A stretch of DNA of 64,000 nucleotides from Verrucomicrobiia bacterium (GTDB lineage: Bacteria > Verrucomicrobiota > Verrucomicrobiia > Limisphaerales > JADLHS01), in contig JAHCLO010000035.1 of NCBI GenBank assembly GCA_026125285.1, positions 1-64,000 of the forward strand, given 5' to 3'. The position numbers and the translations under genes were made by a program. The notes under the pieces were generated by a model, which saw only the letters and a list, made by a program, of their open reading frames with translations, was not told where the DNA came from and did no database searches. Below are positions 7,119 to 59,770 of this stretch, in pieces; within the stretch, counting starts at the first letter, position 1, and every line of letters starts with the position of its first letter.

Positions 7119-8072
7119 ATGAAAATTCACGCCCTCATCGTTTTGTCGTTATCCGTTTGTGCCATGGTGGGATTCAGTGCCGAACAACGTTCGCTCGCCG
7201 AGCGGTTGGGCTACCGAGCCACCGACAAGATACTTATCGTCAACGGCGACGATACGGGCATGTGCCACGCGGCCAACCTGGCGACCATCGAGTGTTTGGA
7301 GCAAGGGGTGATGCGCTCGGCCACGATCATGGTGCCGTGCCCTTGGTTTCCCGAAATTGCAGCGTACGCGAAACAGAATCCAGACAGGGATTTCGGCATC
7401 CACTTGTGCCACACTTCCGAGTGGGTGAAGTATCGTTGGGGGCCGGTCGCGGATCGCGCCCAGGTGCCGGGACTGATTGACCCGGATGGCTATTTGTGGC
7501 GCGGCGTTGAGGATGTCTATCGAAATGCCAAACCCGAGGAGGCGTTGATTGAAGGACGCGCGCAAATCAAGCGTGCGTTGGCCGCCGGCATTGATGTAAC
7601 GCATTTGGATTCGCACATGGGCACGCTGCAATTGCACCCCGAATATGTGAGGGTGTATCTGCAACTGGCGGTGGAGTTCAATCTGCCGGTGCGCATGGCC
7701 TCACAGGAAACTCTCGCTCGTTTCGGGCAGACGGAACTGCGCCAGCAATTCGCCGCCAAGGGCGTTCTTTTCCCGGATTACTTTGTGTATGACGAGTTGA
7801 AGGACCTGAAGCAGGGCGTGAAGCCTTTTTGGCTGAACATCGTGAAGAACCTGAAACCGGGAGTGACGGAGCTGTACATCCATGCTGCGCTGCCCACCGA
7901 GGAATCCAAGGCCATCACGGGTAGCTGGGCAATCCGTGCCCAGGAATACGAACTGTTTTCCCGGGACGATGACATGAAGCGCTTGATGGAAGAGGAAAAG
8001 ATCATCCTGATCAGTTTCCGGCCGCTTCGCGAACTGCAACGAAGCGGTCAGCAGCGCGGAACCGTGCGTTGA
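7119..8072 (+). CDS. ChbG/YdjC (HpnK)-family carbohydrate deacetylase, exported
   Basis: A 317-residue protein starting at the ATG at 7119 with a signal peptide (MKIHALIVLSLSVCAMVGF). The YdjC-like fold is recognisable: the metal-binding NGDDTGMCHAAN motif, then DFGIHLCHTSEW and THLDSHMGTLQLHPEY, supplying the Asp and His ligands expected of this family. ChbG-type enzymes remove acetyl groups from N-acetylated sugars. Here the export signal points to periplasmic or outer substrates rather than cytosolic chitobiose. The preceding propeller/toroid gene may act on the same glycan (inference from proximity). The substrate cannot be told from sequence. Confidence 0.88.
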   Translation: MKIHALIVLSLSVCAMVGFSAEQRSLAERLGYRATDKILIVNGDDTGMCHAANLATIECLEQGVMRSATIMVPCPWFPEIAAYAKQNPDRDFGIHLCHTSEWVKYRWGPVADRAQVPGLIDPDGYLWRGVEDVYRNAKPEEALIEGRAQIKRALAAGIDVTHLDSHMGTLQLHPEYVRVYLQLAVEFNLPVRMASQETLARFGQTELRQQFAAKGVLFPDYFVYDELKDLKQGVKPFWLNIVKNLKPGVTELYIHAALPTEESKAITGSWAIRAQEYELFSRDDDMKRLMEEEKIILISFRPLRELQRSGQQRGTVR

Positions 8073-8328
8073 AAGGCGGAGTTGAACACCGCATCATCTG
8101 GTCCAACCGGCCGTGAAACCCTCGCGCAAGCCGCCCGAGGCCTTGCGCTTCGAGGTTTCTTCGGCCCTTCTTTGCGCTTGAATTTCAGATCCGGCGTCAG
8201 TAGGTTTTTCGTGTGCCCAACTCCAAACGTGATTGCCAAGTTGCCTTTCCGGGTATCGGCTGGTCTGCGGGAGCAGGTTCGGTTGACCCGCATCCACAGA
8301 GTGGGCTTCAACCAGAGGGAGATTAACC

Positions 8329-9063
8329 ATGCACCTACCTCATCGTCACACAACGTTCCGTATCGGCTTCACTTTGATCGAATTGCTGGTGGTGATCGCC
8401 ATCATTGCCATCCTCGCAGGGATGTTGCTGCCGGCCTTGAGCAAGGCCAAAGAAAAGGCCAATCGCGCCAAGTGCATCAACAACGTCAAACAAATCCTCC
8501 TGAGCACGCACCTATACACGGTGGATTTCAACGACTATCTGCCCTACACCGGCTGGAGTTCCGGCACTTTTGACGTACCCAATTGGTGCTATACGCGGAC
8601 CCGCGTCGCGACCAACAAGGACAATATCACGATGGGGCAACTTTGGCCGTATCACAAGCAGCGCGACCTTTACTGGTGTCCCATTGAGAAGACCAACACA
8701 CTGGCTTTCCGACTGCGGGAAATGCAGGTCACCAGCTATACCATGAATGGCTCGGTTTCCAGTTTCGGCACCACCCCGGGCGCCGTGCCTTATGTCAGCC
8801 ACAAAATGGCCCGCTTTCGGCCGCACTACATGATCTATTGGGAATCAGATGAGAACCAACCGTCCTACTATGACAATGCCACAAGTTCCCCAAATGAGGG
8901 GGCCAGCGTACGCCATAGCCAGGGCATCGTCATGGGGATGTTCGGTGGCCAGACCGAATTCATCAAGTTCCGGGCCTACGCCATGGAAGCTGGCTTAGGC
9001 GGATTCCGGGGCAATCGCCCTGGCCGGATGTGGTGCAGTCCAAACAGTCCTACCGGTGAATGA
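8329..9063 (+). CDS. Pseudopilin-like protein with prepilin N-terminal motif
   Basis: A 244-residue protein with the type IV prepilin/pseudopilin N-terminus [19 protein letters not shown] preceded by a short basic leader ([12 protein letters not shown]). Cleavage by prepilin peptidase would be after the Gly and methylation at the following Phe, with Glu at +5. The rest is the large globular type common in Verrucomicrobiota and Planctomycetes, with [18 protein letters not shown] near the C-terminus. A good ribosome site (AGAGGGAG, 8314-8321) precedes the ATG. No secretion or pilus assembly genes are nearby, so the machinery it serves lies elsewhere. A lipoprotein gene follows 31 bp downstream. 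Confidence 0.9.
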
Positions 9064-55313: not shown

Positions 55314-55716
55314 GCGTTGGCAAGGGCGGCAAAATCTCTTGAAACAAAACGCCCGTCTGTCGGGTATTGATCCCGACGATATGAAAGCAATTCACTTTAT
55401 GACGAAACCGAATCCGGCCTTCAAGGTGACCCAGCCTTTGCCGCTGTTGCCCAGCGATTACAGGGGTGGCCGGGGGCGGGCCGCGATACCCGCCTGTGCG
55501 TCACTTTCAGCCCTCGCCGGGCTGCCGTTGACGGCCGCGAAGAGCGTCGTCGGGGCGATTTGCCCCAAGGCCGACCTGGGGTCGCGGATGCCCCGCTTGG
55601 TTGCCTGAAAGGCGCCTCATGCAATCCGTCACTGATTATCCAGCAGGTTATGCAACAGCTTTGCATCTTAACCGTCTTCGGCCCTAAACTGACCTCCGGG
55701 CGATGCTCGCCGGCCA
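55314..55716. other. Intergenic spacer, nothing recognised
   Basis: About 400 bases between the permease pair and the ECF sigma gene. G+C-rich with several short inverted repeats, the clearest being TCGGG/CCCGA around 55360-55376. No reading frame, tRNA or known repeat is convincing. It presumably holds the promoter of the sigma operon near its right end. Confidence 0.5.
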
Positions 55717-56262
55717 ATGACCGAGACGCAACAGTTCGAGGCGTTCCTGCACAATTACCAGAACATGGTTTTTAGCACTGCCATGCGCCTGCTCGCCAAC
55801 CAATCCGAAGCCGAGGATGTCACACAAGAGGTTTTCCTGCGCGCCTACGAGAGGTTCGCCACGTTGCGTGACAGTCCGACGGTTGGCGGGTGGCTCAAGA
55901 CGGTGGCCACCAATCTGAGCCTCAACCATCTCGCGCGCTACCGGGCGCGCTGGAGTTTTTTCTCGGAACTGAGCCGCAGTTCGGATGAGGGTGATGAACT
56001 GGTGGTGGATTTCCCCGCGCCGGAGGACACGCACGCCGCAATTGAGGCCGCCGATCGGCGCGAGCTGGTGGAGCGCGCCCTGCAAAGTCTGCCGCCCGCG
56101 CAACGGGTGCCGCTGGTGCTTTTCCATCTGGAGAGTCTGCAATACGATGAGATTGCCGAAAAGCTCGGCGTGTCGCTGGGCAAGGTGAAGACAGACATCT
56201 TTCGCGGACGCGAGGCGTTGCGCCAAAAGCTGCAACTCAAACTGGAGGCAGAATCGCTTTAA
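55717..56262 (+). CDS. ECF sigma factor, RpoE-like
   Basis: A 181-residue sigma-70 family protein with region 2 (FEAFLHNYQNMVFSTAMRLL ... AEDVTQEVFLRAYERFATLR ... GWLKTVATNLSLNHLARYRA) and region 4 (ALQSLPPAQRVPLVLFHLES ... YDEIAEKLGVSLGKVKTDIF). It directs RNA polymerase to specific promoters, probably for an envelope stress response. The next gene, 13 bp downstream, encodes a small membrane protein where an anti-sigma factor would be expected. The third gene is a membrane protein, so the operon may regulate envelope functions (inference). Confidence 0.95.
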   Translation: MTETQQFEAFLHNYQNMVFSTAMRLLANQSEAEDVTQEVFLRAYERFATLRDSPTVGGWLKTVATNLSLNHLARYRARWSFFSELSRSSDEGDELVVDFPAPEDTHAAIEAADRRELVERALQSLPPAQRVPLVLFHLESLQYDEIAEKLGVSLGKVKTDIFRGREALRQKLQLKLEAESL

Positions 56263-56275
56263 CGGACCACCACGC

Positions 56276-56740
56276 ATGGACTCCGAACTCGAGAAACAAC
56301 TGACGGCAAGCGTGCAACGGGAGTTGAACACGTTGGGCGAACTTGCGGCGCCAAGCGGGTTGGCGGCGCGGATCATGGGAACGATTCAACAACGCGCCGC
56401 CGCGCCGTGGTACCGACGCGCGTGGCAGACCTGGCCATTCCCACAACGAGCGGCGGCACTGGTGGTGATGCTCGCGCTGTTTGCCGGTCTGTGCGTCGGG
56501 AGCTGGCAGTTTGGCCAGAGCGATCTGTTGGCGGACGCGCTGGGTTCGATCGGCGAGCGCTTGAGCCTGGTGAATGTGCTTTGGGGCGCATTGGGCGCCC
56601 TGGGCAACGCCATCACGCTGGCAGTCCAGAGCATCCATCCGCTGGTATGGATCGGCGGTGCGTTGGTGATGCTGGGCTGTTACGCCGCGTGTGTCGGTCT
56701 GGGAACGGTCTGTGTGCGGCTCGCGTGGGCGCGCCGCTAA
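56276..56740 (+). CDS. Small membrane protein, possible anti-sigma factor
   Basis: A 154-residue protein. The N-terminal 55 residues are helical and charged (MDSELEKQLTASVQRELNTL ... AARIMGTIQQRAAAPWYRR), followed by two membrane helices (AAALVVMLALFAGLCVGSWQ and WIGGALVMLGCYAACVGLGT). The cytosolic helical head plus membrane segments, and the position directly after an ECF sigma gene, fit an anti-sigma factor, but no ZAS zinc motif (HXXXCXXC) is present. It is therefore either a non-zinc anti-sigma factor or another membrane protein of the operon. Confidence 0.75.
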   Translation: MDSELEKQLTASVQRELNTLGELAAPSGLAARIMGTIQQRAAAPWYRRAWQTWPFPQRAAALVVMLALFAGLCVGSWQFGQSDLLADALGSIGERLSLVNVLWGALGALGNAITLAVQSIHPLVWIGGALVMLGCYAACVGLGTVCVRLAWARR

Positions 56741-56752
56741 ACCAGGAGAATC

Positions 56753-58453
56753 ATGAAAACAAATCTTAAACAAACGTGGGGCCGGGGCGGAACAGGGATT
56801 CTTGGCACGCTGCTGTTCTGCGGCTGGGTGATGAGCGGGACGACGCAAGAAGTCGTGCCGGAGGCTAACCCGGACGAGGCGACGAATGCGTCGGTGACGG
56901 AAAGCGCCACGGAAGAAGCGCCGACGCCCTCGATCACCTCACCCTTGGTGCGGCATGGTTATCATGGCACCTCGGGGCAGGAGATCGTGGTGTTTGGACA
57001 CAGCGCAGAACTCGCGGCAGGTCAATCCATCCGGGATATGGTGGCGATTTTTGGTTCGGCCACCGTGCGCGGCGAGGTGCGCGACCAGGTGGTTGCCGTC
57101 TTCGGTAACATTGTCATTGAGGGACAGACGCGCGACGCCGTAGCAGTGTTTGGCAACATCAAACTCGCCCCCAACGCCGTTGTCTCGCGCGATGCCGTAT
57201 CGGTGTTTGGCAACGTCAAACTTGGGCCCGGCGCCAAAATCGAACGCGACGTGGTGGCCGTGGGTGGCGCCGTGGATCGGGAGGAAGGCGCCACGATTGG
57301 CGGACAAATCGTGAGCATTCCTGGGTTTGGTTGGATGGGAAATTGGGTGGAGCATTGCCTGTTGAAACTGCGTCCGCTGGCGCCGCGCGTTGGCTGGCTG
57401 TGGGTGCTGCCGGGCGCGTTCTTCCTGCTGTATCTGCTCGTGGCGTTGGCGTTGCCGCGTCCCGTGAACGCGTGTTTGGAGGAAATTACGCGCCGCCCGG
57501 CAACGACACTGATGGTGGGACTGTTGACCAAAATACTCATGCCGTTGGTGATCTTCATTCTCGTGGCCACGGGCATCGGGGTCTTCGTTGTGCCGTTCCT
57601 GCTCGCGGCGCTGTTCTTTGCGGCCATTCTGGGCAAGGTGGCTTTGCTGCAATATGTCGGCCGGCAGTTGGGACGACAATTTGGCAGCAGCGCCTTTGAG
57701 GCACCGTTGCTGGCGTTCGTAGTGGGGTGGATTCTTATCACGCTGCTGTACTTCGTGCCGGTCTTGGGTCTGGTGGTGTTTGGCGTAACGGGAATCTGGG
57801 CGTTGGGCGCGGCGGTCATGGCCATGTTTGGCGGCACGCGACGCGAATTGCCCCCGCGCACGGCGCCTCCACCGGTGACGAACCAACCGCAGCCTGCGAC
57901 ACCTGCCACGGCGACTGGCGCGGCCACTTTCGCCGTCGAGACCGCCGCGAACAATCCTGCCGAACCCGGCGAAACGCCGGCGAGCAGCAGCGCCGAAAGT
58001 GGGCCGCCACCACCCCTGCCGACTCCCATGCCAGTGACGGAAACTGCGTCCGCGGGCAATTCCGAGGCGTTGACCTTTCCGCGCGCCAATTTCTGGGAGC
58101 GCATGGGCGCGGCGTTTCTCGATGTGATCCTCGTCTCGATTCTGAGTTCGCTGGTCGGCGGAGTGCCGCTGGGATTCCTCGTGGCACTGGCCTATTTCGC
58201 GGGGATGTGGGCGTGGAAAGGCACGACGGTTGGCGGCATTGTGCTGAATCTTAAAGTCGTCCGGCTCGATAACCAACCGGTCACTTTTCCGGTGGCGTTG
58301 GTGCGCGGGCTGGCAGCGGCGTTCTCCGTCGTTGTGCTGTTCCTCGGCTTTCTGTGGATGATTTGGGATCGCGACAAGCAAACCTGGCACGATAAAATCG
58401 CCGGGACGGTTGTGATTCGCCTGCCGCGCGGCACATCGCTGGTGTGTTTCTGA
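56753..58453 (+). CDS. Fusion of a bactofilin-like repeat region, membrane domain and RDD domain
   Basis: A 566-residue protein with an AGGAG ribosome site before the ATG. It starts with a signal-like segment (TGILGTLLFCGWVMSGTTQE). Residues about 75-190 are short beta repeats spaced every 18-20 residues (RDMVAIFGSATVRGEVRDQV, DAVAVFGNIKLAPNAVVSRD) resembling the polymer-forming/bactofilin helix. Next come several membrane helices (WVLPGAFFLLYLLVALALPR ... FVVGWILITLLYFVPVLGLV), a Pro/Ala-rich linker, and a C-terminal RDD domain (NFWERMGAAFLDVILVSILS, DRDKQTWHDKIAGTVVIRL). The repeat region should face the periplasm. It is the third gene of the sigma operon. Function unknown. Confidence 0.87.
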   Translation: MKTNLKQTWGRGGTGILGTLLFCGWVMSGTTQEVVPEANPDEATNASVTESATEEAPTPSITSPLVRHGYHGTSGQEIVVFGHSAELAAGQSIRDMVAIFGSATVRGEVRDQVVAVFGNIVIEGQTRDAVAVFGNIKLAPNAVVSRDAVSVFGNVKLGPGAKIERDVVAVGGAVDREEGATIGGQIVSIPGFGWMGNWVEHCLLKLRPLAPRVGWLWVLPGAFFLLYLLVALALPRPVNACLEEITRRPATTLMVGLLTKILMPLVIFILVATGIGVFVVPFLLAALFFAAILGKVALLQYVGRQLGRQFGSSAFEAPLLAFVVGWILITLLYFVPVLGLVVFGVTGIWALGAAVMAMFGGTRRELPPRTAPPPVTNQPQPATPATATGAATFAVETAANNPAEPGETPASSSAESGPPPPLPTPMPVTETASAGNSEALTFPRANFWERMGAAFLDVILVSILSSLVGGVPLGFLVALAYFAGMWAWKGTTVGGIVLNLKVVRLDNQPVTFPVALVRGLAAAFSVVVLFLGFLWMIWDRDKQTWHDKIAGTVVIRLPRGTSLVCF

Positions 58454-58716: not shown

Positions 58717-59589
58717 TCACTTCGGAGTCCCGGGCGGAAGGATTTCAAGCTTCGGCGTGACGCCAGGTTCGCAGAATCTGATGACCGAATACTTGGCAAC
58801 GAAGACCTGTTTTCCATCGGCTTGTTCGAGTTCGATGAAATCAGCCACCAGGTCGCTGTCCTCGCCAGACAACCTTCGCAGACCTTTGAACAAGACGTTG
58901 CGGTACACGACGAGGTTCTGATTTCGCTCGGTGCAATACACATCGTAGCGCTTGTTCGTCTCAACTGCGTCCCGCGTCTCTGTTGGCATTGAGATGTTGT
59001 CTTTGGTTTCTGGGTTGGAAGGCGGAGCAGTAGTATCGCTGGTGTGTATCGTTTCGGATTCCGCGTGCTGCGCATCAAAGTTGGGATCAAGTTCCTTGAG
59101 GATTTTCCGCCGCGCCACCTCCACGCTCACGCCCAGATTTCTCAACACCCGGGCGGCCACATTGTCGCCCTCGTGCAACAGGCCAAGCAGGATATGCTCA
59201 GTCCCGACATAGGTGTGGTTTAGCGCCTTGGATTCCTTCACTGCCAGTGCCAACACTTTCTTCACTCGGGGTGTGTAGGGAATGTTGCCAGTCATGTTCT
59301 GGTCGGGTCTGGTGCCGACTTGTTGCTCGACTTCCAACCGCACGGTCTCAAGGTCGAGGCCCAGTTTGCCGAGAACATTGATGGCCACGCCTTGCCGGAG
59401 CGCAATCAATCCCAACAGCAGGTGTTCGGTGCCGACGAAGTTGTGGTGCATACGATCCGCTTCCTTGCGGGCGAGCGCCAGTGACTGCTGGGCACGGGGA
59501 GTGAGATTGTTGAGGGATTCATTCATAAACGGCGTCGGGCTTAGAGCGGGTTCCGTCAATGCCCTTCGGATTCGCTTGAACCAGTTCAT
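58717..59589 (-). CDS. ClpC-type double Clp-N domain protein lacking the AAA+ ATPase
   Basis: A 290-residue protein starting at ATG 59589 (MNWFKRIRRALTEPALSPTP); an internal ATG at 59526 (MNESLNNLTPRAQQSLALAR) is an alternative. Two Clp-N repeats are clear: LTPRAQQSLALARKEADRMH with NFVGTEHLLLGLIALRQGVA, and YTPRVKKVLALAVKESKALN with TYVGTEHILLGLLHEGDNVA, then VARRKILKELDPNF. In ClpC these domains recruit adaptors and substrates to the unfoldase. Here no Walker motif follows. After a Thr/Ser/Glu linker there is an unfamiliar C-terminal module of about 85 residues (KRYDVYCTERNQNLVVYRNV ... FIELEQADGKQVFVAKYSVI). It may act as an adaptor or decoy for Clp. Confidence 0.88.
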   Translation of the reverse strand: MNWFKRIRRALTEPALSPTPFMNESLNNLTPRAQQSLALARKEADRMHHNFVGTEHLLLGLIALRQGVAINVLGKLGLDLETVRLEVEQQVGTRPDQNMTGNIPYTPRVKKVLALAVKESKALNHTYVGTEHILLGLLHEGDNVAARVLRNLGVSVEVARRKILKELDPNFDAQHAESETIHTSDTTAPPSNPETKDNISMPTETRDAVETNKRYDVYCTERNQNLVVYRNVLFKGLRRLSGEDSDLVADFIELEQADGKQVFVAKYSVIRFCEPGVTPKLEILPPGTPK

Positions 59590-59770
59590 AACCAAATTGG
59601 GTTTACCCGGAGAATACCACGTCCGTTATCCGGAAGGCCAACAGTGTTTCCGCCCCATTTTCCTTTCCTTTCGGCGCTTTGGGCTTATCCTGCCGCGCTC
59701 GGGTTGGGAGTTCGGAATAAGATCAGGATCAAGATTAAGACGAAGAGCAAGCAGTTCAAGAAACACACGG

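Follow-up and report, generated by a model that had tools for sequence, protein, structure and literature searches.

A conserved ECF sigma factor operon of Verrucomicrobiia and its membrane protein with a predicted periplasmic bactofilin-fold beta-helix

The window analysed here, a stretch of 64,000 nucleotides from a Verrucomicrobiia bacterium (GenBank assembly GCA_026125285.1, contig JAHCLO010000035.1, positions 1 to 64,000), contains three genes on the same strand, separated by gaps of 13 and 12 nt, that encode an ECF sigma factor, a 154-aa membrane protein and a 566-aa protein whose gene is present in a single copy in the genome. These genes, the domains of the third product and the elements of the upstream promoter are located as follows.

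55651..55656, plus strand: −35 element TGCAAC of a conserved promoter of the ECF type, lying 66 nt ahead of the start codon of the sigma gene
55673..55676, plus strand: −10 element CGTC, after a 16-nt spacer from the −35 element
Near A55686, plus strand: candidate transcription start, from conserved T-A columns
55717..56262, plus strand: ECF sigma factor, 181 aa (Pfam Sigma70_r4_2, 1.2e-16; Sigma70_r2, 7.6e-15)
56276..56740, plus strand: probable membrane anti-sigma factor, 154 aa (AlphaFold2; NCBIfam NF052375 in the family)
56753..58453, plus strand: 566-aa membrane protein with signal peptide, predicted periplasmic bactofilin-fold beta-helix, membrane helices, linker and RDD domain
56984..57322, plus strand: beta-helix domain, residues 78-190 (AlphaFold2, structure superposition, repeat periodicity)
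57395..57847, plus strand: membrane domain, residues 215-365 (AlphaFold2 and hydropathy)
58091..58420, plus strand: RDD domain, residues 447-556, with R450, D457 and D547 (Pfam PF06271)

Two neighbouring genes for ABC-2 family permeases (PF06182; 53487-55313) lie directly upstream of the sigma operon, and a minus-strand gene (58717-59595) converges on the RDD gene; its product has Clp N-terminal repeats in two stretches (PF02861, E 1.6e-31) as its sole Pfam match.

The third gene is one open reading frame in which, as the initial annotation had proposed, repeats, membrane helices and an RDD domain (Pfam E 1e-17) are joined in a single polypeptide. The regular VAVFGN-type repeats that it had described are borne out by VVAVFG-type cores at residues 96, 113, 129, 148 and 167 and by a lag-19 identity autocorrelation of 0.257, a value reached by 0 of 5000 shuffles. 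They belong to a domain of six rungs (about residues 78-190), which across homologues lengthens by approximately whole rungs, spanning ~112 residues in most and ~124, 129-131 or 146-148 in others. An AlphaFold2 model built with 79 homologues (mean pLDDT 83 over the whole chain) predicts the strands of residues 78-189 at a pLDDT of about 95-98, with the beta-helical arrangement that had been anticipated, followed by membrane helices (215-365) and, past a disordered linker, the RDD part, both modelled with confidence. In a structure comparison with VIA-align 2, residues 84-189 of this predicted model superpose on the Thermus bactofilin 6rib with a Z-score of 15.1 at 1.3 Å, covering 96 of the 101 residues of 6rib at 25% identity, and residues 82-190 superpose on BacA (2n3d) with a Z-score of 12.5, versus 11.1 for the best non-bactofilin row. 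Foldseek alone returned 6rib weakly (E 0.79, TM-score 0.65 by target). Were the repeats instead ordinary hydrophobic low complexity within a transporter, devoid of a defined fold, the lack of any PF04519 match at E ≤1 in a Pfam scan of the 566-aa protein and the weak score of bactofilin 6ria (E 0.42) in a sequence-only profile search of the PDB would be accounted for; yet the confidence of the predicted beta-helix, its closer fit to 6rib than to the best non-bactofilin, the lag-19 periodicity and the presence of PF04519 matches in 11 of the 79 homologues at E ≤0.01 (best 2.1e-5) make this explanation highly improbable.

As to the designation of the repeats as bactofilin-like, the fold stands but the family name does not: the beta-helix is held in common with bactofilins (PF04519) such as those of the 6rib and 2n3d structures, but the window protein lacks the Pfam match and carries several membrane helices. 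Canonical bactofilins are characterized in PMC12448750 as cytoplasmic and mostly without integral membrane helices, N-terminal ones being given for only about 3.2% of them, whereas the present protein is predicted to be periplasmic, is integrated into the membrane by helices that come after the beta-helix, and is fused to an RDD domain. Because this location and membrane architecture do not fit, even though the fold does, we do not file the protein as a bactofilin; elsewhere in the window genome, too, there is no bactofilin match above the Pfam cut-off.

The membrane domain comprises helices 215-233, 249-272, 276-310, 318-332 and 338-365 in the AlphaFold2 model and contains invariant glycines at positions 256, 303, 325 and 352. 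Among the 79 homologues, the frequency of lysine plus arginine is 0.00 in the three short loops predicted to lie outside, as against 1.25 to 1.60 per 10 residues in the predicted inside loops and C-terminal tail and 1.85 per 10 residues in the N-terminal region, while the value for the proline-rich linker, 0.63 per 10 residues, does not discriminate between inside and outside. The beta domain is acidic (K+R 9.9, D+E 14.7), and an AxA-like site is found in 65 of the 79 homologues, the window protein's own signal sequence not being a textbook one. By these positive-inside charge counts the beta-helix is most likely periplasmic, and the predicted topology thereby agrees with the suggestion that the repeats are tethered to the membrane on that side.

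At the other end of the chain, PF06271 matches residues 473-551 with 65.1 bits (gathering cut-off 24.1) and is detected in 78 of the 79 homologues at E ≤0.01. The hallmark residues of the RDD family, whose positions are described in PMC5996927, are present as an arginine that opens the first helix, an aspartate in mid-helix and an aspartate beside a histidine near the C terminus, with conservation of R450 in 77, D457 in 79, H546 in 76 and D547 in 77 of the 79 proteins. What distinguishes the 566-aa protein from the family at large is the extra periplasmic beta-helix, the separate membrane domain and the partial conservation of the antiport residues. A similarity of the RDD part to the peroxisomal complex 7t92 (Z 9.8) was set aside as a possible helical-bundle resemblance.

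The RDD protein of Halobacillus andaensis is presented in PMC5996927 as a Na+(Li+,K+)/H+ antiporter with four essential residues (R124, R129, D154 and D158), and this precedent, together with the conserved R450, D457, H546 and D547, would speak for an RDD part that works as a cation/proton antiporter, with the beta-helix as an accessory and the operon answering salt or alkaline stress. If spacing alone is used to compare the two proteins, D154 corresponds to D547 and R124 perhaps to R518, but the equivalent of D158 (position 551) is a glycine in 78 of 79 homologues, position 523, near R129, is mostly hydrophobic, and the relatives in the 10 loci fetched from outside the class have no RDD domain. 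Residue spacing thus leaves antiport by this domain doubtful, and an operon built around it is an improbable account of the locus.

The sigma factor consists of sigma2 and sigma4 domains only (Pfam/NCBIfam) and matches NCBIfam TIGR02937 above its cut-off (1.5e-26). Its neighbour, the 154-aa protein, is predicted by AlphaFold2 (mean pLDDT 85) to place helices 3-19 and 29-41 in the cytoplasm and to continue with hydrophobic helices 55-81 and 122-153. Within the family of this middle protein, 24 of 54 members match the NCBIfam anti-sigma model NF052375 (best 2e-6) and 9 match PRK13920, both at E ≤0.1; the window protein itself scores E 0.014 against NF052375, far under the cut-off. A fold search with its model gave no match, a search of the PDB with its profile found no anti-sigma factor, and no zinc motif is seen in the displayed rows of the alignment. 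A two-helix anti-sigma factor is the probable identity of the middle protein, judging by its family matches and by its likeness to the class II anti-sigma factor CnrY, which wraps its sigma with two helices (PMC7406223) and likewise has only two cytoplasmic helices. A sigma factor reduced to sigma2 and sigma4, a neighbouring candidate for a membrane anti-sigma factor and an AAC/CGT-type promoter are all reminiscent of the SigW-RsiW and CnrH-CnrY operons, from which the present locus differs by a fixed third gene of unusual architecture.

This arrangement is conserved in nearly all of the loci surveyed. Matches to the 566-aa protein at E ≤1e-5, some of them to the RDD part only, occur in 163 of 293 genomes of the order; loci were taken from the better-scoring part of this list, so that the gene-order count covers close to moderately distant homologues, with L005, which shares a contig with L038, and the 1-kb placeholder L097 left out of it. 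Of the 80 distinct loci, window included, 79 have a co-oriented sigma gene no more than 2.5 kb upstream; the single exception (L092) is cut by a contig end, and one further locus (L062) gives only a weak sigma match. The middle gene is recovered by phmmer in 76 of the 80. Junctions are mostly short or overlapping, some middle-gene coordinates being wrong (distances such as −796 or 515). Of the four alignments that were compiled, A1 holds all 79 proteins, with a few uncertain N-terminal starts, A2 the window's middle protein and 53 of 76 others, A3 55 of 79 and A4 44 of 79. In family f66 of the same class (17 matching genomes), sigma gene, middle gene, beta-helix/membrane part and RDD follow one another in this order in 10 of 10 loci examined. 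The conserved gene order hence does include the sigma gene and, with the anti-sigma family matches, argues for the co-transcription with an ECF sigma factor and a probable anti-sigma factor that the initial annotation had put forward. In one locus (L047, G165) the sigma gene is split into two adjacent minus-strand ORFs (7868-8245 and 8249-8596), possibly by a frameshift or a sequencing error. A literature search found neither a paper joining RDD with an ECF sigma factor and Verrucomicrobia nor the genomic context of the 566-aa protein in print.

Upstream regions of 74 loci (L005, L062 and loci short of upstream sequence were omitted), aligned from a TG[CA]AAC seed with subsequent free refinement, converge on a consensus of TG[CA]AAC, a 16-nt spacer and GTGT/GGGT, followed by a T-A step at the expected transcription start. 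The information content of this alignment is 23.9 bits, versus a mean of 10.9 (maximum 11.5) in 20 identically treated shuffles and 12.7 in far-upstream stretches, and the strict form TG[CA]AAC-N16-[GC][GT]GT is present in 41 of 74 regions, whereas shuffles give 0.1 and none of the 66 far-upstream controls has it. In 29 of 74 regions, the commonest case, the promoter lies 66 nt before the estimated start of the sigma gene, as it does in the window. The window site, TGCAAC-N16-CGTC, matches the ECF AAC/CGT hallmark and falls outside the 41 strict matches because its −10 element is CGTC rather than the commoner GTGT; a pattern with fixed CGTC (AAC-N16-CGTC) was found in 1 of 74 regions versus 1.8 in shuffles, and the alignment consensus was used instead. 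A longer, clade-specific promoter string has, at up to one mismatch, a single occurrence in the window genome, before the sigma gene. Of the 10 upstream regions of family f66, 7 contain TG[CA]AA[CG] at most 200 nt away from the first match to sigma; in L174 this site seems to fall within coding sequence. L174, L176 and L179 have TGCGAC before CGTGTT or CGGGTT instead, and L177 has CGCAAC.

The B. subtilis sigma-W consensus is TGAAAC-N16-CGTA. AAC/CGT promoters, an anti-sigma partner and autoregulation are named as ECF hallmarks in PMC8103513, and since a promoter of this type is conserved before the sigma gene, the operon is probably autoregulated from it. The regulatory half of our reading, in which a sigma factor and its anti-sigma factor belong to an autoregulated operon whose third gene is fixed, is as a prediction from sequence well supported by conservation.

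A search of 30 genomes with TGMAACTTYN13GTGT returned 28 sites, versus 5 for the reversed control; 13 of them are the operon's own promoter and 15 lie elsewhere (control 5), preceding genes such as those for DUF4097, DUF4252, YbjQ, TerB-like and HlyD-type adaptor proteins and a small membrane protein. This surplus weakly suggests further targets of the sigma factor beyond its own operon. Among 35 regions upstream of the small membrane protein gene, 8 carry a looser form of the motif, but as three of these eight were found through the motif itself, the gene is no settled target. A highly conserved hydrophobic protein of ~65-70 residues, which belongs to no Pfam family, was observed in 46 of 146 genomes (L143-L173; G000:C67:236683-236874), its gene lying ~420 nt downstream of the RDD gene in two of them (G027, G078).

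Relatives of the beta-helix and membrane part also exist beyond the class. A profile of this region has matches in 36 of the 288 phylum genomes: besides the window genome, these comprise 17 from family f66 and 18 from other classes, whose homologues are weaker and mostly shorter. RDD is absent from all 10 loci fetched from these 18. FloA immediately follows the gene in 9 of them, and NfeD-short precedes it in 9 and NfeD-long in 6; the tenth locus (L186) is near a contig end. In one of these loci both NfeD and FloA (E 4e-143) are verified by Pfam, and in a second FloA; of four short homologues scanned, three have a Bactofilin match, which in one case exceeds the cut-off. In L184, L185 and L187-L193 an RDD-less bactofilin-fold membrane protein is thus seen between NfeD-short and FloA, an arrangement for which a literature search found no paper joining bactofilin with NfeD and flotillin.

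These loci bear on the alternative that the third protein is a sensor or co-regulator, whose periplasmic beta-helix would read the state of the envelope and whose membrane helices would signal to the anti-sigma factor and so set sigma activity, rather than serve mainly as an effector. The near-constant three-gene order with its mostly short or overlapping junctions would suit such a role, as would the shortness of the periplasmic part of the anti-sigma factor; however, the RDD-less homologues of other classes accompany FloA and NfeD with no such sigma gene nearby, which argues that the beta-helix/membrane part works without this sigma, and we rate a co-sensor as less likely than an effector.

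B. subtilis has the operon yqeZ-yqfAB. Its flotillins FloA and FloT are reported in PMC8581546 to be under ECF sigma-W and to influence membrane fluidity. In the order of the window, in contrast to the NfeD-FloA operons of other classes, the RDD form belongs to a sigma operon of its own, and FloA is encoded at another place or missing. A FloA gene occurs in 132 of 293 genomes of the order and has no match in the window genome, and the promoter motif occurs in 0 of 16 FloA upstream regions (from 20 loci fetched), versus 6 of 16 for the reversed control, so that the link to flotillin runs only through homology in other classes. The 566-aa protein (E ≤1e-20) and FloA co-occur in 74 of the 293 genomes, with the former only in 60, FloA only in 58 and neither in 101 (odds ratio 2.1, p 0.0015), a statistic that ignores kinship and is given little weight for that reason. 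In two genomes of one genus (L199; G210:C13, G182:C38), the RDD gene is immediately followed by FloA in the reverse orientation.

Our preferred reading, to which we assign a probability of roughly 0.55, is that of an autoregulated ECF sigma/anti-sigma operon with the 566-aa protein as a dedicated membrane-organising stress effector. The anti-sigma factor, through its two cytoplasmic helices and its membrane helices, would hold the sigma factor at the inner membrane; a disturbance of the membrane or envelope would release it, and the freed sigma factor would transcribe its own operon from the TGCAAC-N16-CGTC promoter, raising the level of the third protein. As a protein of the inner membrane, the latter would expose its beta-helix to the periplasm and have its RDD domain at the cytoplasmic end; we infer for it a probable role in organising or scaffolding the membrane, like that of FloA and NfeD in sigma-W-type responses. 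The effector half of this reading, a periplasmic bactofilin-fold protein of the inner membrane that organises membrane or envelope under stress, is probable, the stress role being suggested by the ECF/anti-sigma context and, by analogy, by the relatives in NfeD-FloA operons.

In summary, bactofilins are usually regarded as a cytoplasmic cytoskeleton, and the present locus suggests that a shape known from this internal structure is also used in an envelope-stress system. As a tentative extension, at rather less than even odds, an extracytoplasmic, membrane-integrated bactofilin branch may work with flotillin and NfeD to organise the membrane under stress; in one class it would have been fused to RDD and captured by a dedicated sigma-W-like ECF factor, replacing the flotillin operon as the conserved target. 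If the preferred reading is true, a widely conserved family that presents the bactofilin fold in the periplasm, is governed by a dedicated sigma factor and has kin among the proteins of flotillin operons would extend the uses of this fold. With its direct predictions of promoter, anti-sigma partner and topology, the operon would also offer a good starting point for work on the control of envelope stress in a phylum that has been little studied.
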